Positions 1-63,884 of a stretch of DNA of 64,000 bases are shown piece after piece (within the stretch, counting starts at the first letter, position 1; every line of letters begins with the position of its first letter). Under the pieces are notes generated by a model. It searched no databases, was not told the DNA's origin, and saw nothing but the letters and a program-made list of their open reading frames with translations. The stretch is from Agelas oroides (taxonomy: Eukaryota; Porifera; Demospongiae; Agelasida; Agelasidae): contig OX422192.1 of the NCBI GenBank assembly GCA_949130485.1, forward strand, positions 2,670,085 to 2,734,084, given 5' to 3'. The position numbers and the translations under genes are program-made.

Positions 1-121
1 GTTCTGGGGGGTCCTTATTTATCGAAAAATTAGTTTCGGGGGAACCAATTTTGATGGGTCCACTTTTACCATGACAGTTCTGTACTCAAGTTGGTATGCA
101 TTTCTTTACTTACAATTCCAG

Positions 122-22991: not shown

Positions 22992-25900
22992 TTAAACAAT
23001 GTCTTGATTGAAAACAGTCTTAACACTGTAGGTGGGAGAAAACTGAGACGCCAGAGTATGAACACGGCTCTTGAAATCATCAATATTTACGTAGATTATC
23101 TGCAAAAAAAGCAAAGTATCCAATGTCAAACTAGTCTCTACTGAACAGTCGAGTGTGTGCATTTGACATCATTGCCACATAATATTATGTGGCACCTTGT
23201 TGAGAGGCAAGTGAATAGGAAAATTGTAGCCTCGTTCCCAGGCCTCCCCCGTTTTTGTTCCTCGGTTTGCGTTATACTGAACGCAAACAAGCTTCTTTCG
23301 AGGTATAGAGCATGAGATTATGCTGAGGGTTGGTAAGGACATTTATCATACTTGCATAAGAAATTAATGCTACTGGTAGGAGCACTAGAGTGGAATTTAA
23401 TGAGGTATATAGCACATTGAAAACCATCCACTTTGCCTCTCAAGATGGTCACATAATTTATACCACATTGGGACAGTAAACTATCACTCAATTTTGTGTA
23501 AATTATTCTGGTACAACATGTCAACTATGCTGGTACAACATGCAAGTTTTGTGCAAACTACAATTTTACATAATAAGAGTATATGACTCGTTATACTGTG
23601 CTGTTCGTCCAATGAAATACCCATAGAAAGTGATGTAATGTGGTATAATGTTACGTATGACATAAACACACAGCTATACAAGCAACAAAAGCGAAGACTA
23701 CATTATAACTAAGACAAGCTACACACTATAACTCTAACTCTAAAAGCACCTGCAACATTAAGGTAAGATGCACAGCAATAACTACATGTATGTCAAATAG
23801 CCTGACCCAGGCTCTAAATATGCAGATTACTAAACATGGCAGAGTTCTTTTAGTTAACTATAACTTTGACTAAAAAACCTTTTAGTATGGCCTTTTAAAA
23901 TTTTCATTATAACTAAATCCATACCGGCCAAACTGCAAACTATAACCAAAAACCATGGCTATACTAAAACAGAAAACGTTTTGCACTCATAACTATAACT
24001 AAATACCTTTCAGTAAGGAGTTGTAGAAATTAAAACTAAACTATATGATGCATTCTACTGTTATTACAAGCATTAGCAATGCTACACGTACCTGCAAATG
24101 TCTCATTCCACCATTCAACTTAAAGGCAGTCCTGGAGTGTATGAATCGTCTGTTGTTAAATGTCATGGCTTCTCCAGGCTTCAGTCGATGGTGGAGCTGC
24201 AGGAAATTCAGACAATAAACAGATAGATCGTTGGGAGAGTTACGTTCGAAAGTGCATGCATGTGTACCAACTAAGCTTTGTTTCCAGGTCCCTGCCCAGA
24301 TTATAACGTATTGCAAATGATGAAAAGCTGGAGCCTGGGAACGAGACTGTACTGAATTCTTTTGACTATAGCAACAATCACAATCATATAATTATACCAA
24401 CATGTTGTAAATGTGTAGATACAGGTATGTTCATTTTTAAATTTTTTGTTGTTATGGTTTACCTGGGATGACCCAGTTAACGAGGAAATCCCCAATAGCA
24501 CTTAGGCTAATTTTAAGGGGGTCCCCGGGACCGACGGCTTAACGTCCCTTCCGAAGGATGCGAAGGAAAACCTTCTACTCAATTTATGAGGTAGGGCTGA
24601 GTGTACCCAGAAGAGAGATAAATCTCTGCTGCAAGTGGGACTGGAACCCTGGACCTTTCAATCCGCAGTCCCCCCTTCATGATTCATTGCATATGAGCTG
24701 CAAAACATGTTTTACTTCACCTTCATTTCAGACTCATCAAACATGGTTGCCAGGCATGTGTAGGCCTCATAGTAACTCTCAACCTCCTCCTATAATTTGG
24801 TAGAGAAAAAGAGTTAATTAAAACTCTAGTGCAACATTTTGCTGTTTTCGACTACATATACACTATAAGTGAAGATAGAGACCAAGTAGATACCAAGCAC
24901 TGTTACTAATACTAAATGTACAATATCAAATGTTCAGCACACCTCAGGAATGGACAATGGGCCTTCAAGTACAGGGGCCCAGAAAATGCCAGTAACCTGT
25001 GGAATATAAAGCCCACCCAACTTAGTAGTTAATAATCTACAATAAATAATTATTATTTTACAGACGAAGAAACTCCTTGCAAGAATTTTCTGCTCTTTAC
25101 CAGCATTTATGTGGAATGACTTAGCCTTCAGTTGTAGGAGGGTACAGTGTAGTAATCTAAGGCTGAGAAATTAAAACGGAGCCAAGGGGGGTGTATTAAT
25201 TAAATACCTAGATTTCAGAATCCACAAATCCAATTGATTTCAACATTTCCTGAAGTGACTTTCATATTTTTGAGCTTATGTTCCATAAAATTAATGCTTT
25301 CATACTTTGGTTTATGCAAGGACAACTGCTTGGGTACTGACCCGTCATCTAAGACTGTTTGTCATCTAAGACTGTACTCACATTTGAAGAACTGTCCACA
25401 GAAATGTGAGGTCTCTGGTACACATAAATACCCCTGTGTGCAGAGGGAAGAGGCAATAACAACCACAAACAATCAGTGGCTTATGCACTGAGTGACTTTA
25501 TGTGACTGTACATATTGGTATACGTAAAATGTATTGGTTGATGTGGATGAGTACTAAAAATGACAAAGCGATGCATTAATGTGTCATGTATGTAACTTCT
25601 TAGAGCGGTCTGCTCTTTGGAAGGTTGTAGGGACCCTGGTGAGGGTGGCAAAGTGCTGGGGGTGTTTCTTCCTCATCTCCTCCACCACAGCAAAGGCATC
25701 AAGAAGCACACTCTCACCTCCCTCGACACACGCATCATTTCTGCAGTAAGAACATGGAATACTCTATTGGCACACACAAGAACATGTTAACAACACGTTA
25801 ACAACAAGTTAACAACACGTTAACAATACCCAAGTAGGGCAACCATGCAATATAGGACAGTCTGAGTTCTGTGGTACCTGATACAGTGCAGAAGCTGCAG

Positions 25901-33204: not shown

Positions 33205-33875
33205 TTAATTAACCCAGCACACTATTATGTATTTTTTACCTTGCAACTTAAGCTCAACAGGATAATGGTCACTGACATCTTGAGCCTAGTAGTAGCAAGC
33301 ATAGATATTATCTACTGTAAGCACTCTAAATACCCCCAAAAATGCAAGGTTAGAAAATATGTTGCAAAAAACAAAGCATGTCTTGTGATGCAATATTAGA
33401 AGATGAGTGAGATTGACATATCTTGCTACTATGTAGCAAAAGCACACACACACACACACACACATGCACTCATGTATGACCTGCTCTTGTGACAGTCTAT
33501 ATTCTTGATCAAAGAGGAACACTTTTGAACTGTTCATCACCACATGGTCACTGATGCTGCCAGCAACAACGATTCTGCAGAGGACAATGATCACAAGAGT
33601 GGGTGACATGCACACATGCCATTATGAGCTTCACACTCAAAGCTAGCAGGGGAATCTCTGCTATCAGGTCATACATAGCTAGTCATCCGTGCACAGCCCT
33701 TACATATACTAGAAATTGAGGGTCTTAAACCAAACTCTGCCATCTTTTGTCATCTGTGAGCAGCCTGGCTTGCCTGCATTGCATAGGCTGTACTTAAAGA
33801 AGTCAGTGATTAAGCATGCATGCTACAAATACGGCTATTCAACTACACACATACACATGCACACACATGCACATA

Positions 33876-33938
<63 letters not shown>

Positions 33939-36900
33939 CACATACCACACACACACACACCTGTCATATGCGCAGTTGCTATTCTTTGTGGTCGTATCAA
34001 CATCGGTGTCCAGCAGCCAGGTGAACCGTGAGTCTGTGACTAGCTCTAACATGTTGTAACGCCTTTGAGAGAGATAGCGGCAGTCCGCATTAAAATCACC
34101 CAAGATGATCCCATTCTCAGTGCCATAATGACTGACAGCCTCATCATAGACATCAACAAGTGCATTGATTTCACTGAAGGCTTCGGAGGGCTTTGTGTGT
34201 ATACCGACAAGGAAGAACTGAGGGAGACCTGGGGAGAATGGGGGGTTATCAGGAAGTGTGTGTGTGTGTGCACGTGTGTGTGTGTGTGTGTAGCCTTGTT
34301 CACAGGTTCCTCCACAACAGGCCAGGAGAGACTTCTGACCCCTAACCTCCTAAAGGTGCATTCTCTGATGGATGACCTTTGACCTCCAGGAGCCCCAGTT
34401 TTGTAACCAAAATGTACGTTTTCTATCTTACCTGCTCCTTCCTGTCTGCTCCTGATGAGCACACTGTACGGCTCCCTCTCAAAGTGGTCACTGGCTGAGT
34501 CATTGTATTGAAATGTACGTACAATCTCCACACGATCTGTCCTGTAGGATATGAAGACTGACCTGTAGGACAACTGAGTCTTTCACCCCTAGTCTTATAC
34601 CTTACCTGTACATGAAGGCATACTGTTCTTTGGTGTTGGATCGTCCCAACCGCTCACTGACATTAACTGCATATGTCACTGAACTGTGTGTGCAGATAAC
34701 AATGAAAGGCACTGAAGTGCCAAACCCTCAGTGCAGCAGTGCATGTGATTGTACTTGTGTGTTAACTGGAATCAATCACTGTCTCGTGAACAATAGTATC
34801 ATGACGTTTGCTCTCGAGTTGATATGGCATGATATCAATTCATTCCTAACTGTCTGTCCTCAAATCTGTTCTGGACAGCTATAGGCATTTGGGCCTAATA
34901 TTAACACAGTGCAGACTCTCTCATGCTTGCCATGCGCATTCTGTTTTGTTCCTGCCTATGCAAAGTTCGCTCACGAGTTTCTGACGCTCTTTCACAGGCC
35001 TTGTGCAAACTTATCTTTAGCTTTCCTAGCTAATTTCACACTATCTGATTCTACTGCTCTCATACACTCTACTTTTCATTTGGATCGAAAGACATGATCA
35101 CAGCGTTCACATGTCTTCCGTCTTACAGGTACAGCAGCTTTACAGTGCGGGCATACCTTTGTTGGAGGCATACTTACTGCCAATGGCCAATAATCGAACT
35201 CGCAAAGAACGTCTCTCCCAAGTGAGGCCACTAACCACTACGTGGTCCAGATTCATACGCATGCGCGCGCGTTTTCCGCGGAGTAAAAAATGGCCGACTT
35301 ATACATACCAACAGGAAACGCTCTAGCTTCGCAACGAAGCATTTTCAGAGAAAATCGCTTAAACTTTTCGACCTTCATCCGCCGCTGAGAAGGTTAGTAT
35401 CGTTTGTGGTACGAATAATGAAAAGTGAGATGTTGAGTAACAGACACACACACACACACACGACCAAGTACCGTAACCCTCGCTGCGCATGCGCGCCGAG
35501 GGTTAATAATCATGAACAATCAACGCACCACATCTCCCTTATAAAACAGGCCTAGATGTTATGCAAAGTCATGAAAGCCTTTTAGGAGATGATCTTTGAG
35601 AACCTCAGAACAATACAGGGCTGTAGTCATCAGGTTTGAAGTGGTCAGGTTCATAGTGCGTGCGTAAGCACACTACAGCTAGGGTTGTTTGGGGGCATGC
35701 TCCCCAAGAAAATTTTTTGAATTTAGATTGCTTCTGAGACCATTTTTGGGCCAATACGATGCTTCTCGGCGGCCAGACGACAGTTTCACCTGAACAAATA
35801 CCTACCCTTTCTGCCCATTGTGTCGTATACAGCACTGGTTTCGACTTTCAGATCGTTCACTTACCCAGTAAGCAACATCCTTCACAGATGAGGCTTGCGA
35901 GACTAATCGGTAGTTTGTGAGAACCGGAAAGTTGTTGGAAGACTTGGAAGAGTTCTTTTGCACTGTTTGCAGCCATCTCGCAAGTTTCAACATGTCACCT
36001 GTGTGCTTGGGGGCCTTGCATGGGCGTCCGCCGAGCAATGGCACTAACTTGTCTGGTTGAAAGCGGACTAACCGGACTGGCGGCTACGGCCCTGCAATAC
36101 TAGGCCTGACAATGGTAGCTAGGTATGTATAGAAAATACAGAAATGTGGTTATGTGTTTTGAGTTACCCCCTTGCCAAGCCTTAGCTCTATGAGAATGAT
36201 AAGAATAAAATCTAGCCTTTTCCCTTGTTGTGAAGCTTGACTGTATATGTGGGGGGGGGGGGGGGGGGGGTGGGAATATTATACTGAAGAAAGATTGTCC
36301 ATGTGTTTCTTAGTAATTTTGTACGGTACATTTTCCAGGAACAACTATTTTTTGACTCTTTGTTACAATACCATATGACATAAGGGACACCCACAAACAA
36401 TGTAGTACATCAGTATATTTTGGTATTTGAGGCAACACAACTGTAATCAATGAAATAAGCTTGCTCCATTTGCTCTTGCCTAGATACATATGTATGTAGA
36501 AGGGCATAGCATGTACAGATGACCTGTGTGTCGTATCTTGGCTACATTTCATCTATATGTTCCTCTGTGTTTGTAAATACTAGCAGAACCGTAGATGCAT
36601 ACATGGCTTACATGTCTATCTATTTCATGGGCAATCTTATGGGGGAGTGCTGTGATTTATTATGTAGTTGCTGTGTGTGTTTCACTCAGAAGCTACTGTT
36701 GCTGCTATGAACCCACGCATATCACCTACAGCTAGGAATATTGAGTTTGGTCATTATGTCACTGCATATTTAACATTAACTCTTTGCACGCGAAGTGCAG
36801 ATTTATATGCATACGTGATTAATTTAGCCTACGCGAAGTGCACATAAATCTGCACAGGAACTTGGGAAAAGCAGAACCACGCAATAGTAAAGCCAAACAA

Positions 36901-38893
36901 GAAGTTAGGGTAAATCCCTGTCTATTGAGTAGTAATAAGTCTAGGCCACACCTTTCCACTTACGTTGACCTCATAAAAGGCAGGAAGGGGCGGTGCTAGT
37001 TCGCGGGTGATCGTGAATTTGACCAAGAGCTGCTAATAAACGCGAAGCTTTCTCTTCGAGCAAACGGCCTCCAGTTTTCACTCGAGGTTGGAGTACTACC
37101 TTTAGATAACTTGGAAATCGGCTGAATCTGTCAAGGCTCTAGGTACAAGTGAGAAAATCGGCGCCGTTTCGAATCGCTGGTAAGCTATGATGTAAAGCCG
37201 CAGATAATGGCTTCAAACAAGTACAAATTGCTTACCTAGCAGTGATCAGCTATTTAGATAAACTAGTCCAGCCTAGTTACACGCTGTCTATGCAAATCAG
37301 CCTACTGGCACTGCCCAGGGCTTGCTAGGCAACGCTTGCCACTTTGACCTCAGACTGATAACATTAATTTCCGCGTTAATAAACGGCAGTGTACAAGCCA
37401 TTTCCGCGTGCAAAGATGATTCGTATATAACACTTAGCTATGTTGCACTGCTACATGCTTTGCTTTACCTGTTTGTGTTCACTCGTTCCAGGAAGGAATG
37501 GATGACAGTACGGGAAGAATCCCGGATTTCTTGAATTAAGATGATGTCATATCTGTGTACAATCTACAGGAGACGGCAACAACAATACAGAAAGTAAGTA
37601 AAACTGTTAGTAAAGAATTTAGTGAGGCTTACATGCATGTAAGCGTACAAAATTTTTATCGCAGCTCATACTCCTAGAGGACTAAAGTTATGAGCACCAT
37701 TCTGTCTGTTAAACCTGTCATGGTATGACCTGAAGCTACCATTGTATAAATTTAACAATGAAATTTGAAGAAACCTTTCTTTCATATTAAGGTAGGACAA
37801 CCTTGAATCACAAATCTCCAAGTCATGTGGACAGACGGATGGGTAATGTCTAAGTGTACACAAGATTCACAAGTTTGTAACCAAACTGCTTTCTCTACCT
37901 GATTAGGCCAAAAAACTCAATTTTCAGTCTAAAATAAAAATTTGCACCCTTTCCAAGGATCCATCCCCAGTCTGACCACATCATCAACACACACACAAAA
38001 CAAGTAAAAACATTACGTATGGATTTGTCCTGTGACCACTTCAATTCCAGTCTACAGACCAAAACACACATTTGACCTCAAAACAGTAATTTTGGCTATG
38101 CTGGCTTTCAAGAAAAATTCGACACACCCCCACTCAAACCAACCAAAACTGAGCCCAGTTTCAGAAAGCTCAACTCACCCCCTACAAAACTATGTCCCAC
38201 TCACCTCCAGGCCAGGGAGTTATGCCCACAAACCTACTCCCTGTCATTGCCCCTAGAATGGAGCCAAGTTACACACATTCCCGCTAGCATAAAATTGGGC
38301 GGGGCCTACAAGCCCGAAAAGTCAGCTTTCTACAGTACCTTGGCCAGACAACTGTGTGATGACACCCGTCTTCCAGGATGGCTCTCTGCATTTCCACCAC
38401 ACTCACAAACATTCAAGCCCACTCTGGCAAGCTTTGCACACACAAATAGCCAACCATCGCATTCAACGAGCTAGAAAATCTTTTTAGTGTGTTTTAAGTG
38501 TTGGAGGATTTCTTCAAAGTTCTGCCCAGCCACATGAAAGTGCCGCCAGACCACTACAAAGGGCCGCAGACCACATCAAAGGGACACGCCCCCCTTGTTG
38601 ATTCCGGTTGCCGCCGTTGGAAAGTGTAAACAAGCCAATGAATTTCAATTGCGCCATTATGGTCACCCGATCATTAATTATTCCTGAGCGAATCGGCCCG
38701 ATTCGCGATCCAAGGTTGTCCTACCTTAACTCATAGACAGATGCAAACAAGTTGCAACAATGGTGGCTCACTTGCACAAGTGTTGCCACCACATCTTGTT
38801 TCCTGAACTTTGACTGTCCAAAAATTTGAATGTTGAAGGCAGAAATTTTCAGCACAGAGGATGGCTGTAATGTTGGTGGGCACAAGGTGTCTC
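33205..38893 (-). CDS. DNase I-like gene D1 (signal exon not placed)
   Basis: Seven exons in transcript order: 38772-38893, 37469-37563, 34606-34683, 34432-34541, 33961-34228, 33481-33574, 33205-33285. DNase I is a secreted Mg/Ca-dependent endonuclease of the endonuclease/exonuclease/phosphatase fold. Seen: LKISAFNIQIFGQSK, ILIQEIRDSS (catalytic Glu), GIHTKPSEA with the catalytic His (CAC at 34197-34199, equivalent to mammalian His134), GDFNADC (catalytic Asp, disulfide Cys), NCAYDR and SDHYPVE (second catalytic His). All core residues are present. The first exon begins in phase 1 after TTTGCAG, so an upstream signal-peptide exon is required but not identified. The stop used by D2 and D3 (TAG) reads TAC here, adding YIIVCWVN before TAA. 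Intron 1 holds a piggyBac-like insertion. Confidence 0.8.
33840..33960. repeat. (CA)n microsatellite touching a splice donor
   Basis: A long CA run ends at 33960, directly at the donor of D1 exon 33961-34228 (minus strand reads AG then gtgtgtgtgt). A shorter (GT)n tract at about 34257-34290 lies just upstream of the same exon. Confidence 0.85.
35255..35388 (+). promoter_or_regulatory. CpG-rich NRF1/YY1-like patch with a 32-codon frame
   Basis: CGCATGCGCGCGCG near 35258 resembles an NRF1 site. AAAAAATGGCCGAC at 35285-35298 resembles a YY1 site overlapping an ATG. The frame from 35290 to 35388 starts MADLYIPTGNALASQRSIFR and ends in TGA; GAGAAG followed by gttagt just after could be a donor. 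It looks like a housekeeping-type promoter inside intron 2 of D1. I cannot connect it to further exons. Confidence 0.35.
35484..35495. promoter_or_regulatory. NRF1-like palindrome
   Basis: TGCGCATGCGCG fits the NRF1 consensus and sits in a wider inverted repeat (aaccctcg / cgagggtt). It may be a regulatory site or the centre of a small hairpin repeat. Confidence 0.35.
35680..35765. repeat. Dispersed repeat shared with 15590-15690
   Basis: ggggcatgctccccaagaaa through gagaccatttttgggcca is the complement of the copy at 15590-15690. Confidence 0.55.
35865..35993 (-). CDS. Candidate first coding exon of an unknown gene
   Basis: An ATG at 35993 opens 43 codons (MLKLARWLQTVQKNSSKSSN..) that end exactly at a strong donor, TGG followed by gtaagtg (35864 downward). 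The start is basic and amphipathic. The upstream frame stays open. It lies within intron 2 of D1 on the same strand, and the next exon was not found. I do not recognise a family. Confidence 0.3.
36251..36270. repeat. Poly-G run of 20
   Basis: Twenty consecutive G. It could form a G-quadruplex on the plus strand and is prone to sequencing length error. Intron 2 of D1. Confidence 0.9.
36776..37416. mobile_element. piggyBac-like MITE, degraded copy
   Basis: Left end TTAACTCTTTGCACGCG matches the element at 2689-3153 and right end CGCGTGCAAAGA is its complement. The interior (gtaaatcc..gttgagtagtaat, aggaaggggcggtgctagtt) is shared. The right TTAA has been lost. Intron 2 of D1. Confidence 0.65.
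37787..38729. mobile_element. TTAA-flanked element in D1 intron 1
   Basis: TTAA-GGTAGGACAACCTTG at the left and CAAGGTTGTCCTACC-TTAA at the right are exact inverted repeats with TTAA on each side, as in piggyBac-type transposition. It is about 940 bp. The homologous D2 intron lacks it and reads straight across (near 43540-43550). Frames inside show no transposase. Confidence 0.75.
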
Positions 38894-38984
38894 CTGCAAA
38901 TCGTAAATGAAAACTATATCATAGTTTGTACCATGGTGGGCATGGCCATCAAAGGAGCCGACAGTGCAATATACGGTGAAGACA

Positions 38985-39050
38985 CGTGCGCACCAGTGCA
39001 ATATGTATATTGCACGGTGCATATTGCACTCTCGCGCACGTGCACACTAG
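38985..39050. repeat. Short palindrome
   Basis: gtgcgcaccagtgcaatatg and catattgcactctcgcgcac pair around a TATATTGCAC centre, just upstream of the D1 first exon. Confidence 0.5.
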
Positions 39051-39059
39051 TATAGTACA

Positions 39060-39236
39060 GAGAAACTTCCGAGCGTCAGGCTTCTTGCTAAGCATAAACC
39101 TCTGGAGTCCGGCAAGAAGCTGATGCACACTTCGTGGAGGGTAAGGCTGCCCATCCTTCCTCCGAACTTCAGCAATGAAACGAGAGACCCAGCGGTTCAG
39201 CTGACCAATATTGGGTTCTTCAAACAACTTCTCGGG
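39060..39236 (-). pseudogene. Tyrosine recombinase-like (Crypton/DUF3504) fragment
   Basis: Reads IGQLNRWVSRFIAEVRRKDG, then QPYPPRSVHQLLAGLQRFM and ends around KPDARKF. The R-K-DG-x-YPP..L..GLQR pattern is characteristic of the N-terminal part of DUF3504/Crypton-derived recombinase proteins (KIAA1958, ZMYM2-type). Only about 55 codons remain and no catalytic region is seen. It is flanked by hairpins at 38985-39050 and 39258-39344. Confidence 0.55.
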
Positions 39237-39257
39237 GCACAGAAAACTAGTACAAGC

Positions 39258-39344
39258 TAGTTAGACCATACCTGTTCCTCGGGATTTATCGGGAATATCA
39301 CTTCGTGTATTTCCAATAAATCCCTCGCAGGCATGGTCTAACTA
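39258..39344. repeat. Hairpin of 87 bp
   Basis: tagttagaccatacctg / caggcatggtctaacta with inner cgggatttat / ataaatccc pairing. Probably a small MITE. Confidence 0.6.
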
Positions 39345-39942
39345 TTACATAATGAATGCTGCACTTTATTTGGATGTAAAAGCAAGTACTTTCTCCTTCA
39401 AAAATGATTACTATTTTCTCCATACGTAGCTATCCGGAGCGGTTGGTAATTACCTCCCATTTCTTGAAAATTTTTTCCAATGTTCATTATGATTTGATTG
39501 ATACCAGAGGTATCCAGGCAATAGTCTACTAAGCCAGAAAGGTTGTCCTGTGCATGATACTAGCTATGCACATTGTTCAGTAAAGCAAGAATATGCATGG
39601 TGTCAAATGTTATGCATTATGTTACGCCACTGGTCAAAAATGTCAATAGAAGCATAGCATAATACAACCATGACATAGCCTCTACCACCAGAGTATGGTT
39701 GCTATGGCAACCACCACAGACTGACAGTGGAGGCTGGCAGTTAATTTACCAGCTGATGTTGGAGTTATGGTGCCACCTGTATTACCTAGGGAGGGAGAGG
39801 GGAGAAAGAGGGTATGGAAAGGGGGATAATAAGGAATGGGAGGAGAAAATAGAGGCGGAGGAAGAAAAAAGGGGAATGAGATGACTGACGAGCCATACAT
39901 ATGTCGACTATACTTCATATCTTATAGCTAGGTGTATGCAGA

Positions 39943-42900
39943 CTATTTCCTACCCTGCAGCTCAAATTCAACAGGATAATGGTCACTGACATCCTCAGCC
40001 TGTGAGAGTAAGGTAGGAAGTATACAATCAAATGAATTCATGTCTGAGTGCAATGTCATCATGGCTAACTTGACCCTGTCATTGTAGAGTAGCTAGCTAT
40101 AACAGTAAGGAACTGAGTATTAATGTCAGTGTAGCATATTTGGAGTATCCATATGTCACTGTAAGTAATCTTGTTGATTGAGGTGTTTAGCATACATTAT
40201 GTTACAGATCAACTCATTATCCACATGATTGTGACCCTTATCAACACACACGCAGAGATACCTATGTACATAGGAGGTAGCTATACCAGCTCCCCCACTC
40301 TTTCTCCCACACACACATACACCCATGTATAACCTCCTCCTGGGACAGTCCATATTCTTGATCAAAGAGGAACACTCTTGAGCTGTTCATCACCACATGG
40401 TCACTGATGCTGCCAGCAACAACAATCCTGTGGGAAATTTCAACCATGAACTAATGGGGTATTGGCTAGGATGGTGTAAAGGTCACAGATTGGATCAACA
40501 ACAGTTAAAGATCTTCTCCACTCCCTCCCAACTCACCTCCACTCTTCCCCCCTCTACCCCCTCTCTCCACCCATCTATCCACCCCCTCCACCCCCCTCCT
40601 CCCCTCCCCCCCTCAACACATACACACACCTGTCATATGCACAGTTGCTATTCTTTGTGGTCGTATCAACATCGGTGTCCAGCAGCCAGGTGAATCGTGA
40701 GTCTGTGACTAGCTCTAACATGTTGTAACGTCTTTGAGAGAGATAGCGGCAGTCCGCATTAAAATCACCCAAGATGATCCCATTCTCAGTGCCATAATGA
40801 CAGACAGCCTCATCATAGACATCAACAAGTGCATTGATTTCACTGAAGGCTTCGGAGGGCTTTGTGCGTATACCGACAAGGAAGAACTGAGGGAGACCTG
40901 GGGAGAATGGGGGTGCCAGGAAACATGTGAGTGTGTATGTGTGGGTAGAAGGTAAAGTGAGGTATGATGTGGATTTGACACATGATATTATTATTAAACA
41001 TGTAATCCACACCACAAACAGGTGTATTTTACAACAATAATAATTAGGTAATTTAATAACGTGAGGCAGTACGAGCCATACAATTCAGAGAGAAACGATC
41101 AAAGCCTGGCACAAAAATAAATGTGTCTCTTATCTCCTTAATTAACCTTACTAATGAAAAATCCACACTGCTATCAGTGGCGTAGCTAGAAGCTGACAGT
41201 TGGTAGGGCACAAGTACAGACTGGGAATGAGACATGTATCTACTTGGGTAGGCGTGGTTTGTAGACCGTGACATGTCAGTAGACGAAGAGAAGCCCAGCG
41301 TGCCTGGCGGTTGCTCGAATGAAGCTACGTACGTACAGCACTGTTACACTGGCGGTTGTTTAGCTCCAGTAAGTGAGAAAGCCGGACGGTAGGGCTCCAG
41401 TTGGTAGGGCACTTGCAGCAGTTGGTAGGGCCTAGGCCCTACCAGGCCCTACCTTAGATCCGCCACTTACTGCTACAATCACGCACAGATGAGGAACCAA
41501 ACTTATAATTATAACCAACAAAAGAATGACATGATAGGGAAGTGGCATGAATTTAGCAAAATCCTCTTGTAACCAAAATCCTCTTGTAACCATCTTGTCC
41601 GTTCTGTCTTTGAAGACAGAACGGACAAGATGGATTTTGCTAAACATAACATTTTATAGAATCGTTTATAGCAAGTATTGTAAATACTGTAGCACCCTGA
41701 GATAACAACATGAAGAATGCTTGTGTGACAATTAAAAGGCAGAGACCAAACATGACGCAAATGTTGTTCATATAGACATCAAGGCATTTAATAGATGGGT
41801 TACTTAAATTCCACAGTACACAACCATAGAAATATTGTCTATGTTTGTATGTCAGTGTGTGTGTAGCCTCATTCTCAGGTTCCTCCCCCACAACAGGAGA
41901 GACTTCTGACCACTAACTTCCCAAGTGTACATTCTCTGATGAATGAACTTTGACCTCCAGATATTACAGTTATGTAACCATAGAAATATGTTAGTCCTGT
42001 ACCTGGCTTGCATGCGCCATGAGAGGGTGGGGTCTGGGCCAAAAGTAGAAATATATTTCTATTTTACCTGCTCCTTCCTCTCTGCTCCTGATGAGCACAC
42101 TGTACGGTTCCCTCTCAAAGTGGTCACTGGCTGAGTCATTGTACTGAAATGTACGTACAACCTCCACACGATCTGTCCTGTAGGACATGAAGACTGACCT
42201 GTAGGACAACTGAGCCTTTCACCCCTAGTCTTATACCTTACCTGTACATGAAGGCATACTGCTCTTTGGTGTTGGATCGTCCCAATCGCTCACTGACATT
42301 AACTGCATATGTCACATTGTCAGCAGAGCTGTGTGTGGGGATGACAACATCTCCCATAAAAGTAAGATGGTCTTTAGGAATAAATGCAAACTCAGAACAA
42401 AGAGATGACTCTGGATCAAGCCGGAGATTTATAATACCCTCAGATAATGCTTTTGTTAAGCTAACTGGATGACATAACCAAATGGCACGATGAAAGTATT
42501 AAATAGCTACAGAAATGCACGGAAAGAAGTGATAGATGCAAAGCATCACGCATGATCTCGAGGTGATGTTGTACCAAGAAAGTTAATAATCCATGGGAAA
42601 AATATCAATCCAGCTGAGATTTGAACCCAGAATTCTGAATACTGCTAAGATTCTCTGTACCACTGAGCCACGTTCTCACCCTTTCAACAAAACAAGTGCC
42701 TACTGTTGCCTACAGCAAATAACACCAAGCTTCTGAGGGGGAGTCAAGTGAGCAGACGTGTAACTTCAAACTGCGGCATACACTTTAATTTGAGTGAAGA
42801 AAGCATGAGAATGGCAACTTTGTAGAGATCATGTTGGTGACTCGAATAGTTCACAAGCACTACATTGTATAATTAGCATGAGAAGGACTCTATATAAGTA

Positions 42901-43723
42901 TGTACTTTGGTGTAGCCACTACTCAATAATACCAGAAATGATTGATCACTCCTTAGCTACTCATCTGCATCCAAATTCCAGGCTGCTTGCTTGTTATTCA
43001 GATGCAGATGTCAGGCTTGGATGAACAGATGATTGCTGTAATGTGTGTTGCATTTTTAACCAATCTAATTGCATAGTTTAACTGTTCATGCATGTAATGT
43101 GTTCACTCATGCACTTGCAACCCATATTATAATTGATGGTTAAGCAAAAGTATAAACAACTCACTGATTTATATTAAAATATACTGCACAGATGGTACAA
43201 AACGCTCCAGGTATATTCAATATGTGCCATCAAAACTTTTGAACCTAGCTCACAAGTTTTGATATACTTGTGTTTGCTTTACCTTTTTGAATTCACTCGT
43301 TCCAGGAAGGAATGAATGACAGTACGGGAAGAATCCCGGATTTCTTGAATTAAGATGATGTCGTATCTACGTACAATCTACAGGAGATGGCAACAACAAT
43401 ACAGAAAGAAAGTAAAACTGTTATAAAGAAGTGGGGCTCAATTGAATAATGGCAGCTCACAGTTGTAGATTAAAAGTTATGAATAGCATTTTGATCTGAA
43501 GCTACCATTGTGAAAATTTGACAATGAAGTTGAAGAACCTTTCCTACTAACTCATGAACAGATACAAACTAGTTGTATCAATGGTGGCTCACGTGCACAA
43601 GTGTTGCCACCACATCTTCTTTCTTGAACTTTGACTGTCCAAAAATTTGAATGTTGAAGGCAGAAATCTTCAGCACAGGCCCTGGATAGGATGGCTGTAA
43701 TGTTGGTGAGAACAAGGTGTCTC
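39943..43723 (-). CDS. DNase I-like gene D2 (His to Arg; signal exon uncertain)
   Basis: Exons in transcript order: 43593-43723, 43283-43377, 42242-42328, 42068-42177, 40630-40897, 40334-40427, 39943-39999 (TAG). The frame is intact from DTLFSP to the end, SDHYPVEFELQGRK. The catalytic Glu (LIQEIRDSS), Asp (GDFNADC) and second His (SDHY) are present. The residue equivalent to mammalian His134 is Arg (CGC at 40866-40868, in GIRTKPSEA). Cys residues of the conserved disulfide (GDFNADC, NCAYDR) remain; the second, CxxC-type disulfide loop is absent in all three copies. The first listed exon starts in phase 1. A candidate signal exon in the correct phase lies at 44586-44655. Confidence 0.8.
41177..41471. 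mobile_element. MITE with CAGTGGCG ends
   Basis: cagtggcgtagctag at the left, and the right end atccgccacttactg gives cagtaagtggcggat on the other strand. The interior repeats ggtagggc. The ends resemble hAT-type elements. No duplication is clear. In an intron of D2. Confidence 0.4.
41552..41646. repeat. Palindrome with a perfect 20-bp stem
   Basis: catcttgtccgttctgtctt at 41591 is followed almost at once by its complement ending 41632. Flanking ttagcaaaatcc / ggattttgctaaa extends the pairing. An 18-bp direct duplication (aaaatcctcttgtaacca) lies on the left arm. Confidence 0.7.
42600..42682 (-). repeat. tRNA-like sequence, probably SINE head
   Basis: On the minus strand TGGCTCAGTGGT (42659-42670) fits an RNA polymerase III A box and GGTTCAAATCT (42617-42627) a B box, spaced as in a tRNA. 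The cloverleaf stems are poor, so it is more likely a tRNA-derived repeat than a functional tRNA. It lies upstream of D2 exon 42242-42328, in an intron. Confidence 0.45.
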
Positions 43724-44154
43724 CTGCAAACGGTAACAGATGATTCATCATCATGGGGCGAGCCTGAGCAAGCAGCAAACTGCTGATTTACTACTTTGTC
43801 ATGGCACACAGCAGGATTTGTCACTGTCGACTGTTTAAGCCAAATTTAAATTAACATATTAGCTAAGTCCTTACCAGAGATAAATGTAAGTATCACATAT
43901 GCCAGCCATTTCTCCAGCCAGGGCAGCTAACGTGGCTACACATGCATGGACTAAGCTTTACACCGAAATAATGTTCTGGCGTTTATGAGTGCCGTTTATG
44001 CATGGCCGCCCGGCGCTACCCAGTCAATCACCGTCCATATTATATCAGCAGAGGCGGAGACAGCTACCAAGAAGTGGGGGGGGCTCATGTTCTAAATGTT
44101 AAGCTGTGGGGGTGAGATGATATTGTATTTGTCTGTACAACTAGTAGGAAAATT

Positions 44155-44176
44155 GGGGGGGGGGGGGGGGGGGGGG
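44155..44176. repeat. Poly-G run of 22
   Basis: Twenty-two consecutive G followed by ctgagccccccaat, which can pair back onto the run. Upstream of the D2 first placed exon. Confidence 0.9.
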
Positions 44177-44407
44177 CTGAGCCCCCCAATCTGAAAAGTC
44201 ACGAACTCCATCTTCGTGAAATATTTTAACGCTCATGCATTTACGGTAAGTGGTCGAAGCCAGCCAGCCACAATAGCTGGAAAGTAGAAGCTGGTAGTTA
44301 AGTTATGGTGACACCTGTGTTACCACTCCATACACTAGTACATTATGTTGGGTGTATCGATGCAGCAAGAATAACTCTAAACCATGCCATAGCTAGGTGT
44401 ATGCAGA

Positions 44408-47400
44408 CTATTTCCTACCCTGCAGCTCAAATTCAACAGGATAATGGTCACTGACATCCTCAGCCTGTGAGAGTAAGGTGTATGCATACATGCCAAAATA
44501 AAGTAAAAAAAACAACAACCTGTCAGAGTGCAACCGTGTACAGCTGTTTCATCAATATTAATGCAGCATGATAACTTGGGCTGACCAACAACTGCAATGA
44601 ATAAAACTACAAGTACATAGACAGCCATATCCAGTGGTTGCTTGTGGCCAGCCATCGTGAGTTTTATTAGTGAGTAGTACAATCAACACACAATCATACA
44701 TCACACATGCACATACACATAAGCATGTGTGCATGTTCACGCAATGCAAGCATCACACACACACACATCCTTAAACTTGTATAACCTCCTCCTGGGACAG
44801 TCCATATTCTTGATCAAAAAGGAACACTCTTGCACTGTTCATCACCACATGGTCACTGATGCTGCCAGCAACAACAATCCTGTGGAAGGTTGCAGTATCC
44901 AACTAGTGACAGGTTTAATTGAACAAGCAGTAAAACTCCCCCCCAATCCTCCAAACGTTCACAACAAGCAAAGCTGAAGAAATTGCTGTGCATGACTTGT
45001 ACTTTCCCACAATAGGAAACATTGCCCAACACACATAGCTAGAGGTGTTAACCTGTCATATGCACAGTCACTATTCCCAGTTGTGCTATCAATGTTGGTA
45101 TCCAGCAGCCAGGTGAACCGTGAGTCTGTGACTAGCTCTAACATGTTGTAACGCCTTTGAGAGAGATAGCGGCAGTCTGCATTAAAATCACCCAAGATGA
45201 TCCCATTCTCAGTGCCATAATGACTGACAGCCTCATCATAGACATCAACAAGTGCATTGATTTCACTGAAGGCTTCGGAAGGCTTTGTGCGTATACCCAC
45301 AAGGAAGAACTGAGGGATATCTGGGGAGATGGAGACATGTGCATGAAGGGAAAGGAAGGAGGATGTGCATGTATGTGTGTGTGTGTGTGTGGGAGAATAC
45401 ACTCCATCAATTAATCGTTACGTACACAAGATCAAGGTGAGGTCATGCATCTATATTATAATATAGATGCATGACCTCAGATCCCACCCCCTTCCCTCTC
45501 GATGTCCTTTACCTGCTCCTTCCTGTCTGCTCCTGATGAGTACACTGTACGGTTCCCTCTCAAAGTGGTCACTGGCTGAGTCATTGTACTGAAATGTACG
45601 TACAATCTCCACACGATCTGTCCTGTAGGACATGAAGACTGACCTGTAGGACAACTGAGTGAATTCAGCTCATACCCCCTCACTCCTCCTGTTTCTCTTT
45701 TCTCCCTCCCTCAAATTCTCGCTTTCATCCATTCCCTATTAATTTTTACCTTCCCTTTCAAACCTGTCAATCTCTTACCTGTACATGAAAGCGTACTGCT
45801 CTTTGCTTGCAGATCTTCCGAGTCGCTCGCTGACATTAACTGCATATGTCACACTCGTACTAGAGCTGTGTATGTGCAGGTGACAACAATGAACTGTCTA
45901 GAACATTTACGTAAGCTAGATGATAATTGCATCACTGGTAGAAACCTGTGGAAATGTGACCAGCTATGTCCCTTGGCCCCTCACAATTTCATCATTCTTC
46001 ATAGCAAATGTCTACCCTAGCTATTAGGGTATCTTCATGAACCTTCACATTAATTGACAAGGGACTTCAAATCTATATAGAGATAAGGTCCACATTTTAG
46101 GTAGATTCCATTAGCTACTGAGGCCATAACACTGCTATCCTCATTGGACAATTCACTTATATGTTGAGTTGGTGCATTCAGTGACTTCTGTGTTGTTTAT
46201 CATGTTACAGTGTTAATGATTTCTTGCATCTAGCTACTTTCACTAATAGCTCCTTCTGACTTTCTTTATAGCTACACACTAGCTGTTTACATTCTGTTCT
46301 GTTGCTTTTACAGCAATTTTTTTGCATTGAAGTGCTATCGGTGCCTTTGATCTGTCCACAAGTTACAGTTTTGATGGCAGGAGAAATTATTATGCTAGCA
46401 AGCATTTTTTTGGTGTTTCTTTAAATTTAACATTGGCTACATCATCGGTGTAGTAGCTATGTACATGAATGCATCTTATTATGTGCAACTTAACTATACT
46501 GAATGATTTTGTATTGCAACAATTCCAATTGTAGCTACATGCTTTTGCTTTACCTGTTTGAATTCACTCGTTCCAGGAAGGAATGAATGACAGTACGGGA
46601 AGAATCCCGGATTTCTTGAATTAAGATGATGTCATATCTACGTACAATCTACAGGAGATGGCAACAACAATACAGAAAGTAAAACTGTTATAAAGAAGTG
46701 GTTATACACACACACTAGACTGATGCTTTGAAAATAGTTTCTATGCCAATGTTATGAGGCAAATAAAAACTTCAAGCATATCTTCAGCAGAGGGAAGATG
46801 TTCAAAATCATTTAGAATACCATTCAGCATGGCTTCTCTCCTGATGGAGAGATGTTTCCAGTTGACCCAACAGAGCTCTGATGGTAGCTCCCAAGTGTGC
46901 AACTGTTTTTTGACATTTCTCGCAGTCAGCTCATGACGGCAAACATGCATGTCTTTAAAAATAGTTTTTTTACAAACTAACTATGCATGAGTAGTCGAAA
47001 ATTGTGTTCTGCATTCTATGGATTCTATGGATGCCAGTCCAGAGACGAATGTCTAGCTCCTAAAGACATCATATTAGTGTGTAAATTATGCAGGGTTGGC
47101 TTTGTATAACTATTTAAGAGACATTTACCACAATTAGCTCGATTAGTTATTTGCTGCAATTGCAATCACACTTAGTAATTCAAGACATCAAAAAAGCAAC
47201 TATTTTCCATGAAATGCATGCACATCATCTCTAATATCAGTATATGCTACTCCTTTAAAGGGCCGTCAATATGACAGTCAAATATTTAATTATAAGGAAT
47301 TGCCAGAATGTGCATATGGTGTGAAGACAACTACTGCCTTTCAGATTTTGCTCATGAAGAGGTAGAAATTGACCATCAAATTTGTCTAGAATTTTGAACC

Positions 47401-47919
47401 TCCAGCAGTGTGTATAGGCCTAGACATATTGAGGTGAACCAGGTGCAATTGTTTTTATCTCACAGCTCTGTTGGATGACGTGTGGTGGTGTTAATAACAT
47501 TTTCAACCGTGAATGTTGCTTGAATGCATGCACTCCGTATAAATATTTTTATCTTCAGATCGACAGAGATGGATTTAGCTACTTGTGCAGATTCATCAAT
47601 ACATCGACGGCGTTTTGTATACCGGTAGACCATGTAACGTAAAAAGTGCATATTAAACTTTGATACCAATGGGTACTTACTAATGGTAGCTACCATTTGT
47701 CACTCAGGTATTCATAATACTGTATGATAGTATTTTGTGATGAACCAATGCAGAGCAATGCTGACTTACCCGCACAAGTGTTGCGACCACGTCTTCGTTT
47801 TGGAGCTTCGACTTGCCGAAAATTCGAATGTTGAAGGCAGAAATCTTCAGTGTGTCACACGCACACCACCCTACCACCCCAAGTAGCAAGCAGACAAATA
47901 CAGCTTTACTTTGCTGCAT
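44408..47919 (-). CDS. DNase I-like gene D3 (complete; His to Arg)
   Basis: Seven exons in transcript order: 47770-47919, 46554-46648, 45779-45865, 45513-45622, 45053-45320, 44786-44879, 44408-44464 (TAG); 286 aa, close to the 282 aa of human DNase I. Residues 1-22 (MQQSKAVFVCLLLGVVGWCA..) form a signal peptide, so the product is secreted. LKISAFNIRIFGKSK starts the nuclease fold. E62 (QEIRD), D192 (GDFNADC) and H275 (SDHYPVE) match catalytic positions, but the His134 equivalent is R158 (CGC at 45289-45291). Exon 45513-45622 can also start 21 nt earlier at a second TCCTACAG acceptor (45643), which would insert seven residues. The flanking gene D2 lies downstream on the same strand. Confidence 0.85.
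44586..44655 (-). CDS. Candidate signal-peptide exon for D2
   Basis: An ATG at 44655 gives MAGHKQPLDMAVYVLVVLFI then AVV and ends in phase 1 before gtcagc. Joined to the D2 exon at 43723 this gives a signal peptide followed by GDTLFSP, similar to ..CDTLKIS in D3. It lies inside the last intron of D3, so the two genes would overlap. The donor is weak. This is inference from phase and hydrophobicity only. Confidence 0.3.
45438..45479. repeat. Perfect 42-bp palindrome
   Basis: tgaggtcatgcatctatatta followed directly by its exact complement with no spacer. It is 33 bp from the donor of D3 exon 45513-45622. Confidence 0.85.
46741..46950 (-). other. Unidentified 69-codon frame in D3 intron 1
   Basis: From ATG at 46950 to TAG: MHVCRHELTARNVKKQLHTW and onward, with balanced composition and no repeats. 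Coding-like by eye, but I recognise no family and no splice partners. It could be a transposon remnant or chance. Confidence 0.25.
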
Positions 47920-50027: not shown

Positions 50028-53000
50028 CGTCAGTGGAAATTCACGCAAACTCGCGGCTAACCCTAGCCCGGAGCAAACGTTGCGCTAATGCAAGTAGCAT
50101 ATAAACTAGAAGCTAAGGGTATGGAGAGTTTGAAACTGTAAACCGTGAGTCGGTGCAACAAGCGCACAAACCTTAACGAACCTGCAAACAGTATCGGGCG
50201 TCCTCGCACGATCTTGCTGTCTGGGTCGAAGTCGGCCATCCCAAGGTGATGTGTCCACTTGTTCTACAATTGGCGTAGCAGTGGAAATTCACGCAAACTT
50301 GCGCCTTTTGCACTAATGCAAGTAGCATATAAACTACAGGCTAAGGTTATGGAGAGTTTGAAACTGTAAACCGTGAGTCGGTGCAACAAGCGCACAAACC
50401 TTAACGAGCCTGCAAGCAAATGCGTATCCTGCGAAGCAGTATTGTGCCGTCAATGGAAATTCACGCAAACTCGCACCTTTCCCTAGCCCGGAACAAACGT
50501 TGCACTAATGCAAGTAGCATATAAACTAGAAGCTAAGGGTGTGGAGAGTTTGAACCTGTAAACCGTGAGTCGGTGAAACAAGCGCACAACCTTAACGAGC
50601 CTGCAAACAATTGCGTATCCTGCGATGCAGTATTGTACCGTCAATGGAAATTCACCCAAACTCGCGCCTTTCCGTAGCTCGGAACAAACGTTGCACTAAT
50701 GCAAGTAGCATATAAACTAGAAGCTAAGGGTGTGGAGAGTTTGAAACTGTAAACCGTGAGTCGGTGCAACAAGCGCACAAACCTTAACGAGCCTGTAAGC
50801 AAATGCGTATCCTGCGAAACAGTATTGTGCCGTCAATGGAAATTCACGCAAACTCGCGCCTTTCCCTAGCCCGGAACAAACGTTGCACTAATGCAAGTAG
50901 CATATAAACTAGAAGCTAAGGGAATGGAGAAGATGAAACTGTAAAACGTGAACCGGTGCAACAAACGCACAAACCTTAACCAGCCTGCAAACAATTGCGT
51001 ATCCTGCGACGCCGTATTGTACCGTCAATGGAAATTCACGCAAGCTCGTGCCTTTCCCTAGCCGGGAACAAACGTTGCACTAATGCAAGTAGCATGTAAA
51101 CTAGAAGCTAAGGGTATGGAGAGTTTGAAACTGTAAACCGTGAGTCGGTGCAACAAGCGCACAAACCTTAACGAGCCTGCAAACAATTGCGTATCCTGCG
51201 TCGCACATTCTGCCGTCAATGGAAATTCACGCAAACTCGCGCCTTTACCTAGCCCGGAACAAACGTTGCACTAATGCTAGTAGCATATAAACTAGAAACT
51301 AAAGGTGTGGAGAGTATGAACCTGTAAACCGTGAACCGGTGCAACAAACGCACAAACCTTCATGAGCCTGCAAACAATCGCGTATCCTGCGATGCAGTAT
51401 TGTACCGTCAGTGGAAATTCACGCAAACTCGCGCCTTTCCCTAGCCAGGAACAAACGTTGCACTAATGCAAGGAGCATATAAACTAGACGCTAAGGGTGT
51501 GGACAGTTTGAAACTGTAAACCGTGAACCGGTGCAACAAGCGCACAAACCTTAACGAGCCTGCATACAATTGCGTATCCTGCGACGCATATTCTGCCGTC
51601 AATGGAAATTCACGCAAACTCGCACCTTTCCCTAGCCCGGAACAGACGTTACACTAATGCAAGTAGCATATGTACTACAAGCTATGGGTGGGGAGAGTTT
51701 TAAACTGTACACAGTGAACCGGTGCAACAAGCGCACAAACCTTAACGAGCCTGAATACAATTGCGTATCCTGCTACGCATATTCTTCCGTCAATGGAAAT
51801 TCACGCAAACTCGCACCTTTCCCTAGACCGGAACAAACGTTGCACTAATGCAAGTTGAATATAAAATAGAAGCTAAGGGTGGGGAGAGTTTGAACCGGTA
51901 AACCGTGAACCGGTGCAACAAATGCACAATCCTTAACGAGCCTGCAAACAATCGCGTATCCTGCGATGCAGTATTGTACGGTCAATGGAAATTCACCCAA
52001 ACTCGCGCCTTTCCGTAGCTCGGAACAAACGTTGCACTAATGCAAGTAGCATATAAACTAGAAGCTAAGGGTGTGGAGAGTTTGAAACTGTAAACCGTCA
52101 GTCGGTGCAACAAGCGCACAAACCTTAACGAGCCTGCAAGCAATTGCGTATCCTGCGACGCCGTATTGTACCGTCAATGGAAATTCACGCAAACTCGCGC
52201 CTTTCCCTAGCCCGGAACAAACGTTGCACTAATACTAGTAGCATATAAACTAGAAGCTAAGGGTGTGGAGAGTATGAACCTGTAAACCGTGAACCGGTGC
52301 AACAAACGCACAAACCTTCACGAGCCTGCAAACAATCGCGTATCCTGCGATGCAGTATTGTACCGTCAGTGGAAATTCACGCAAACTCGCGCCTTTCCTT
52401 AGCCCGGAACAAACGTTGCACTAATGCAAGGAGCATATAAACTAGACGCTAAGGGTGTGGAGAGTTTGAAACTGTAAACCGTGAACCGGTGCAACAAGCG
52501 CACAAACCTTAACGAGCCTGCATACAATTGCGTATCCTGCGACGCATATTCTGCCGTCAATGGAAATTCACGCAAACTCGCACCTTTCCCTAGCCCGGAA
52601 CAAACGTTGCACTAATGCAAGTAGAAAATAAACTAGAAGCTAAGGGTGTGGAGAGTTTCAACCTGTAAACCGTGAGACGGTGAAACAAGCGCACAAACCT
52701 TAACGAGCCTGCAAACAATTGTGTATTCTTCGACGCATATTCTGCCGTAAATGGTAATTCACGCAACCTTTCCCTAGCCCGGAACAAACGTTGCACTAAT
52801 GCAAGTAGCATGTAAACTAGAAGCTAAGGGTATGGAGAGTTTGAAACTGTAAACCGTGAGTCGGTGCAACAAGCGAACAAACCTTAACGAGCCTGCAAAC
52901 AATTGCGTATCCTGCGTCGCACATTCTGCCGTCAATGGAAATTCACGCAAACTCGCGCCTTTACCTAGCCCGGAACAAACGTTGCACTAATACTAGTAGC

Positions 53001-56000
53001 ATATAAACTAGAAGCTAAGGGTGTGGAGAGTATGAACCTGTAAACCGTGAACCGGTGCAACAAACGGACAAACCTTAATGAGCCTGCAAACAATCGCGTA
53101 TCCTGCGAAGCAGTATTGTGCCGTCAATGGAAATTCACGCAAACTCGCGCCTTTACCTAGCCCGGAACAAACGTTGCACTAATACTAGTAGCATATAAAC
53201 TAGAAGCTAAGGATGTGGAGAGTATGAACCTGTAAACCGTGAACCGGTGCAACAAACGTACAAACCTTAATGAGCCTGCAAACAATCGCGTATCCTGCGA
53301 TGCAGTATTGTACCGTCAGTGGAAATTCACGCAAACTCGCGCCTTTCCTTAGCCCGGAACAAACGTTGCACTAATGCAAGGAGCATATAAACTAGACGCT
53401 AAGGGTGTGGAGAGTTTCAACCTGTAAACCTTGAGACGGTGAAACAAGCGCACAAACCTTAACGAGCCTGCAAACAATTGTGTATTCTTCGACGCATATT
53501 CTGCGTAAATGGTAATTCACGCAACCTTTCCCTAGCCCGGAACAAACGTTGCACTAATGCAAGTAGCATGCAAACTAGAAGCTAAGGGTATGGAGAGTTT
53601 GAAACCGTAAACCGTGAGTCGGTGCAACAAGCGGACAAACCTTAACGAACATGCATACAATTGCGTATCGTTCGACGCATATTCTGCCGTTAATGAAAAT
53701 TCACGCAAACTCTCGCCTTTCCCTAGTCCGGAACAAACGTTGCACTAATGCAAGTAGCATATAAACTAGAAGCTAAGGGCGTGGAGAGTTTGAAACTGTA
53801 AACCGTGAGTCGGTGTAACAAGCGCACAAACCTTAACGAGCCTGCAAACAAATCCGTCTCCAGCGACGCCGTATTGTGCCGCCAATGGAAATTCACGAAA
53901 ACTCGCGCCATTCCCCAGCCCGGAACAAACGTTGCACTAATGCAAGTAGCATATAAACTAGAAGCTAAGGGTATGGAGAGGATGAAACTGTAAACCGTGA
54001 ACTGGTGCAACAAACGCACAAACCTTAACGAGCCTGCAAACAATTGCGTATCCCACGACGCCATATTATACCGTCAATGGAAATTCCCTAGCCCAAAACA
54101 AACGTTGAACTAATGCAAGTAGCATATAAACTACAAGCTAAGGGTGGGGAGGGTTTGAAACTGTAAACCGTGAGTCGGTGCAACAAGCGAACAAACCTTA
54201 ACGAGCCTGCTAACAATTGCGTATCCTGCGACGCATATTCTGCCGTCAATGGCTATTCACGCAAACTCGCGCCTTTCCCTAGCCCGAAACAAATGTTGCA
54301 CTAATGCAAGTCGCATAAACTAGAAGTTAAGGGTGTGGAGAGTTTGAAACTGTAAACCGTGAACCGGTGCAACAAGCGCACAAACCTTAACGAGCCTGCA
54401 AACAATTACGTATCCTCCGACGCATATTCTGCCGTCAATGGAAATCTACGAAAACCCGCTCCTTTACCTAGCCCTTAACAAACGTTGCACTAATGCAAGT
54501 AGCATATAAACTAGAAGCTAAGGGTGTGGAGAGTTTGAACCTGTAAACCGTGAGTCGGTGCAACAAGCGCACAAACTTTAACGAGCCTGCAAACCATTGC
54601 GTATCCTGCTACGCATATTTTCCCGTCAATGGAAATTCACGCAAACTCGCGCCTTTCCCTAGCCCGGAACAAACGTTGCACTAATGCAAGTTGCATATAA
54701 ACTAGAAGCTAAGCGTGTGGAGAGTTTGAACCTGTAAACCGTGAGTCGGTGAAACAAGCGCACAAACCTTAACGAGCCTACAAACAATTGCGTATCCGGT
54801 GACGCATATTTTTCCGTCAATGGCAATTCACGCAAACTCGCGCCTTTCCCTAGCCCGGAACAAACGTTCCACTAGTACAAGTAGAATACAAACTAGACGC
54901 TAAGGGTGTGGAGAGTTTGAAACTGTAACACGTGAGTCGGTGCATCAAGCGCACAAACCTTAACGAGCCTGCAAACAAATCCGTCTACAGCGACGCCGTA
55001 TTCTGCCGCCAATGGAAATTCACGCAAACTCGCTCCTTTGCCTAGCCGGGAACAAACGTTGCACTAATGCAAGTAGCATAGAAACCAGAAGCTAAGGGTG
55101 TTGAGAGTTTCAACCTGTAAACCGTGAGTCGGTGAAACAACCCCACAAACCTTAACGAACCTGCAAACAATTGCGTATCCTTCGACGCATATTCTGCCGT
55201 CAATGGCAATTCTCGCAAACTAGCGCCTTTCCCTAGCCCGGAACAAACGTTGCACTAATGCAAGTAGCATATAAACTAGAAGCTAAGGGTGTGGAGAGTT
55301 TGAAACTGTAAACCGTGAGTCGGTGCAACAAGCGCACAAACCTTAACGAGCCTGTAAACAAATCCGTCTCCAGCGACGCCGTATTGTGCCGCCAATGGAA
55401 ATTCACGAAAACTCGCGCCATTCCCCAGCCCGGAACAAACGTTGCACTAATGCAAGTAGCATATAAACTGGAAGTTAAGGGTATGGAGAGGATAAAACTG
55501 TAAACCGTGAACCGTGCAACAAACGCACAAACCTTAACGAGCCTGCAAACAATTGCGTATCCTGCGATGCCATATTATACCGTCAATGGAAATTCCCTAG
55601 CCCAAAACAAACGTTGCACTAATGCAAGTAGCATATAAACTACAAGCTAAGGGTGTGGAGGGTTTGAAACTGTAAACCGTGAGTCGGTGCAACAAGCGAA
55701 CAAACCTTAACAAGCCTGCTAACAATTGCGTATCCTGCGACGCATATTCTGCCGTCAATGGCTATTCACGCAAACTCGCGCCTTTCCCTAGCCCGAAACA
55801 AATGTTGCACTAATGCAAGTCGCATATAAACTAGAAGTTAAGGGTGTGGAAAGTTTGAAACTGTAAACCGTGAACCGGTGCAACAAGCACACAAACCTTA
55901 ACGAGACTGCAAACAATTGCGTATCCTGCGACGCATATTCTGCCGTCAATGGAAATCCACGGAAACTCGCTCCTTTACCTAGCCCTGAACCAACGTTCCA

Positions 56001-63631: not shown

Positions 63632-63884
63632 CCCTTTTAGCCCGACGCGCATGCGCAGAAATCGATCGCGTGGTTACGAGAGAAGCTAACAAAAAATGGC
63701 GATTTTGTGTAGTGTTGATTCATTGCGTTATATCTTTTAAAATAGCTGAGTTCAGGCAATGATAGTTAGGCTTAGCTTAGTTGAAAACAAACCTGCTTTA
63801 CTCAGAACGTACTCAGAAGACCTGCTAGTGAAGTCCGAAGAAGCTACAACGGTGGAAACGTAGGTACCCGCTGTGTACCTGAAA
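63632..63884 (+). promoter_or_regulatory. Promoter-like sequence or transposon end after the satellite
   Basis: The satellite stops at a TTAA (63628-63631) followed by CCCTTTTAGCCCGACGCGC, which looks like a piggyBac-type terminus. The same stretch has GCGCATGCGCA (63647-63657), an NRF1-like site, and AAAAAATGGCGATTT (63691-63705), a YY1-like site, as in TATA-less promoters. The sequence after it is unique and leads to the exon at 63885. Confidence 0.4.

Follow-up and report, generated by a model that had tools for sequence, protein, structure and literature searches.

DNase I-like units in the window and on the same contig

The window, the whole 64,000-nucleotide stretch of Agelas oroides DNA analyzed here (C10:2670085-2734084), belongs to an intron-bearing genome of 259 Mb in 141 contigs. 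Three neighboring DNase I-like units, D3, D2, and D1, lie in it in tandem on the minus strand. We spliced the units by hand from their splice borders, and seven exons at matching places were obtained for each; the signal peptide of D3 was judged by inspection alone.

44419..47919, minus strand: D3 unit (A type), hand-spliced with GT/AG borders, open over 283 aa
D3 exons 1 to 4, minus strand: 47919-47770 (signal-peptide-like), 46648-46554 (Glu39), 45865-45779 (Glu78), 45622-45513
D3 exons 5 to 7, minus strand: 45320-45053 (Arg134, Asp168, Asn170), 44879-44786 (after Asp212), 44464-44419 (His252)
39954..43723, minus strand: D2 unit (B type), without a clear signal exon, hand-spliced
D2 exons, minus strand: 43723-43593, 43377-43283, 42328-42242, 42177-42068, 40897-40630 (Arg134), 40427-40334, 39999-39954 (His252)
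33240..38893, minus strand: D1 unit (B type), without a clear signal exon, hand-spliced
D1 exons, minus strand: 38893-38772, 37563-37469, 34683-34606, 34541-34432, 34228-33961 (His134), 33574-33481, 33285-33240 (His252)

Searches of the genome with the largest exon and with the Glu39 exon each returned five places, both counts being lower bounds: D1, D2, and D3, and two copies that lie on this contig at a distance of about 2.1 Mb, hereafter far A and far B. The hand-spliced frames of all five units are open, and for D1 to D3, with their GT/AG borders, this bears out what had been read from the sequence alone. Each of the five units matched the Pfam Exo_endo_phos domain, and D3 matched bovine DNase I over D3 residues 11-282 in a phmmer search (E 2.2e-64).

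Elsewhere in the window, exons of gamma-butyrobetaine hydroxylase-like genes were found at 8743-9105, 19029-19382, and 24044-24391; they match a TauD domain, at two places on opposite strands, and a GBBH-like N-terminal domain.

The His134 position and the other active-site residues

The codons at the position of DNase I His134 (residue number as in excerpts of PMC2987838 and PMC6832162) were read directly and placed by alignment.

34197..34199, minus strand: D1 codon CAC, His, at the DNase I His134 position (direct reading; aligned to PDB DNase I)
40866..40868, minus strand: D2 codon CGC, Arg in place of His134 (direct reading; alignment)
45289..45291, minus strand: D3 codon CGC, Arg in place of His134 (direct reading; aligned to the His of five PDB sequences)

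The corresponding plus-strand letters are GTG at 34197-34199 and GCG at 40866-40868 and 45289-45291. Among PDB sequences the largest exon matched five distinct ones, the best with E 1.5e-20; by phmmer, the D1 His stands opposite the His of 'VALHSAP' in bovine DNase I, and the D3 Arg stands opposite a His in all five PDB sequences that D3 matched. The sequence-only reading, in which His is kept in D1 and replaced by Arg in D2 and D3, was thereby borne out. Its description of the three copies as almost identical across the largest exon holds for D1 and D2 (98% over 298 nt) but not for D3, which is 89% identical to D1 and whose exon ends are of a type unlike that of D1 and D2.

It is highly improbable that the Arg134 codons are sequencing or assembly errors, or that His is restored to them by RNA editing. 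A base-calling error is unlikely because the same base stands in D2 and D3, 4.4 kb apart, with different flanks. A-to-I editing turns A into a G-like base and therefore cannot make CAC out of CGC; it runs in the wrong direction to restore His in D2 and D3. The earlier idea of A-to-I-editable sites in reverse consequently fails, since editing could recode the CAC of D1 but not regain His from CGC.

Glu39, Glu78, Asp168, Asn170, Asp212, and His252 are present in the alignment in all five copies, as the sequence-only reading had held of the other catalytic residues of D1, D2, and D3. A cysteine pair at the C173-C209 positions, described as family-wide in an excerpt of PMC9208542, is likewise present in all five. 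His134 itself is found in D1, far A, and far B, and Arg takes its place in D2 and D3. Outside the sponge, His occupies this position in all 12 prokaryotic and viral homologues examined, a small and uneven sample, and in the five PDB sequences. Loci L021-L023 and L025 were dropped before the 12 were counted, as they repeat L009-L012; L027, one of the 12, has its annotation split in two and is possibly a broken gene, and the match to L029 stops short of His252. The bacterial survey of the position is weak: a search of the phylum, covering 395 genomes, gave 2 matches, of which one was the query's own genome, and among plasmid records 4 of the 12 that matched were examined. Conservation of the catalytic residues among the aligned DNase1 family sequences is described in PMC9208542, in whose text the word 'sponge' does not occur.

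In the alignment, all 5 His residues of D3 are also His in D1, which rules out a stand-in of its own. A single additional His in D2 (column 57, at the end of exon 1) precedes Glu39 and, judged from the alignment, lies away from the active site. D3 thus appears to lack a catalytic residue that is otherwise conserved, with no other residue replacing it, the pattern by which a pseudoenzyme is recognized.

In excerpts of the literature, His134 and His252 are said to touch the scissile phosphate (PMC2987838) and His134 to pair with Glu78 (PMC6832162). No activity could be detected for the H134A mutant of a Thioalkalivibrio DNase I homologue (PMC4486849); the same catalytic position is lost there, although to a laboratory Ala rather than, as in D2 and D3, to a natural Arg. 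Because of that mutant, D2 and D3 are probably impaired nucleases, and the impairment is probably strong. As a counter-case, an excerpt of PMC6832162 describes one DNase I-fold protein whose equivalent His is Gly and whose nuclease activity is reported as unaltered. No report or assay of Arg at His134 was found in the literature searched. Of the earlier suggestion, a retained fold sequence with lost or reduced activity in D2 and D3 is therefore probable, given the inactive mutant and the His of all other homologues examined. D3 is like the DNase I family (bovine and human DNase I, DNASE1L3/DNase gamma) in its whole-length homology, and D1 to D3 share with that family six of the seven listed active-site residues and the C173-C209 cysteines; the units differ from it in the Arg of D2 and D3 and in their tandem arrangement without clear signal exons of their own.

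Origin of Arg134

At the His134 position, both far copies have His, encoded by CAT. Because His stands in these copies and in every outside homologue examined, it is, on this comparison, the ancestral residue and Arg the derived one. In the codon-bearing exon, D2 and D3 agree in a state absent from D1 and the far copies at two sites, one of which is the His134 codon. Synonymous divergence between D3 and D2 is 0.71, 0.05, 0.50, 0.05, 0.20, 0.11, and 0.00 in exons 1 to 7, with jumps from exon to exon such as gene conversion would give.

The longest run of agreeing variable sites between D3 and D1, 27 sites in exon 5 just after the codon, was equaled in 1 of 5000 shuffles, which supports the view that D3 and a D1-like sequence exchanged material in that exon. 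For the other pairs the counts were 251 of 5000 (D3-D2, not significant), 2672 of 5000 (D2-D1), and 185 of 5000 (far A-far B). Since the D3-D2 run test is not significant, a transfer of the codon between D3 and D2 would rest on the exon-wise divergence and on parsimony. D3 carries variants of its own at CDS positions 426 and 444, flanking the changed base (434) at distances of 8 and 10 nt, respectively, so that any transferred tract has to be short or to have arisen before them.

The largest exon of D3 is itself a mosaic: within 45042-45321 its ends resemble the far copies and its middle resembles D1 and D2, with a sharp border near CDS position 620.

A single A-to-G transition shared through conversion is the simplest account of these patterns, although unproven. 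Two independent A-to-G changes in D2 and D3 are possible; so is an Arg that came first, with D1 later regaining His through a change at a CpG.

We consider it fairly likely that the tandem DNase I units acquired one His134Arg transition, that it was spread by conversion, and that D2 and D3 still fold but hydrolyze DNA poorly. The A-to-G change would have turned CAC into CGC in D2 or D3 after divergence from D1, and gene conversion, in a direction we infer, would have copied CGC to the other. Arg134 is predicted to be unable to serve as general acid/base partner of Glu78. D2 and D3 should keep their fold and, probably, their binding of DNA and metal, but would hydrolyze DNA very slowly or not at all. 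The nuclease activity would then be supplied by D1, far A, and far B, which have all of the listed residues, and Arg134 would be tolerated because these intact copies exist.

Possible joining of the units and possible roles of D2 and D3

The phases of the exons would let the units be spliced to one another, and a single secreted three-domain protein is moderately supported by this sequence arrangement. D3-D2-D1 may accordingly be one gene, encoding a secreted protein in which D3 and D2, with Arg134, bind DNA without cutting it and D1, with His134, cuts; through its dead domains the protein would gain affinity for DNA or processivity on it. We rate this full reading as possible yet somewhat doubtful. 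A signal-like first exon occurs only in D3 and far A. Frame inspection and blastn gave no support for a conserved signal exon belonging to D2, D1, or far B themselves, and by blastn no conserved exon lies between the end of a unit and the next first exon for any of the three. Furthermore, the first exons of D2, D1, and far B are in phase 1, in all five units exon 7 reaches a GTA at a matching phase-1 border while the places of the read-through stops vary, and the concatenated D3+D2+D1 frame is open. Neither AATAAA nor ATTAAA was found in the D3-D2 gap (695 nt) or the far A-B gap (658 nt).

The splice scores argue against such joining: the exon-7 donors of D3 and D2 score 1.1, under all 30 other donors used (5.5-13.3), and the first acceptor of far B scores 1.7, under all 30 acceptors used (2.5-14.0). 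The D2-D1 gap also contains one AATAAA, and candidate alternative exons lie near the ends of D2 and D3.

39682..39785, minus strand: possible last exon after D2, with a hydrophobic GPI-signal-like tail, phase 1, ending in a stop (open frame, hydrophobicity)
44301..44324, minus strand: decayed remnant of this tail exon after D3, 24 nt, 92% identical, then a stop
44520..44655, minus strand: signal-peptide-like open frame (MAGHK...) within the final intron of D3, up to a phase-1 GT (donor score 3.3)

A GPI-like tail exon is similarly placed after far A (far locus L007, about 1490-1593). The tail exons after D2 and far A share the phase of the joining border and have better acceptors (10.3 and 7.1, respectively), which speaks against a single gene and suggests that membrane-anchored forms may be made. 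The MAGHK frame could likewise start D2; it is possibly the own first exon of that unit, and no counterpart was seen by blastn in D1 or at the far locus. A still more specific reading, a single secreted protein whose first two domains received Arg134 by conversion and now grip DNA without cutting, feeding an active C-terminal domain, seems to us improbable.

Whether joined or separate, D2 and D3 may be drifting toward pseudogenes, with Arg134 a recent neutral or slightly harmful loss that brought no new role. We give this drift a real but minority chance. Changes specific to D2 are few (4 synonymous and 4 nonsynonymous codons), and at a nonsense share of 0.032 these 8 changes would be expected to yield about 0.26 stops; open frames are therefore weak, nearly uninformative evidence. 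The presence of intact copies in the genome also fits drift. On the other hand, every inspected splice border and the other catalytic residues are intact, and whole-length pairwise dN/dS is below 1 (D3-D2, 0.34; D2-D1, 0.22; D3-D1, 0.20), values that are swayed by conversion and by history before Arg134, which much of the divergence may predate.

The sequence-only reading had offered, as an example, D2 and D3 as decoys or regulators; in the form considered here they would bind DNA or protein and be kept for a non-catalytic function. The positive charge of Arg could contact phosphate or Glu78, and the six other residues are kept. There are also precedents: inactive DNase I with non-catalytic roles is reported in an excerpt of PMC5807897, and RNase II pseudonucleases with such roles in one of PMC8097288. 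The fungal Ssd1/Dis3L2 proteins of the latter are like D2 and D3 in having lost active-site residues, some after duplication, but they have the unrelated RNase II fold and are old, with established RNA-binding roles. Open frames and intact residues would, however, be expected even without selection, the D2-specific changes being few, and we regard this function as unlikely.

Should D2 and D3 be expressed, nature would have provided DNase I domains with Arg at position 134 beside a nearly identical domain with His134, and the comparison of D1 with D2 and D3 would amount to a natural experiment on the dependence of DNase I on His134. Were the units joined in one protein, the result would be a DNase with domains in tandem, most of them dead; no such case was seen in the titles and abstracts of the literature matches listed, nor were animal DNase I units of this kind seen among the matches listed from the sponge-focused literature.

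Two further features of the window were observed. An open frame on the minus strand at 38952-39260, within the D2-D1 gap, matches a QRICH1 domain (E 2.9e-08) and is perhaps a remnant of a mobile element. A long tandem array at 50308-63632, in which a 191-nt unit is repeated about 69.5 times (79% matches), takes up most of the window's right end.
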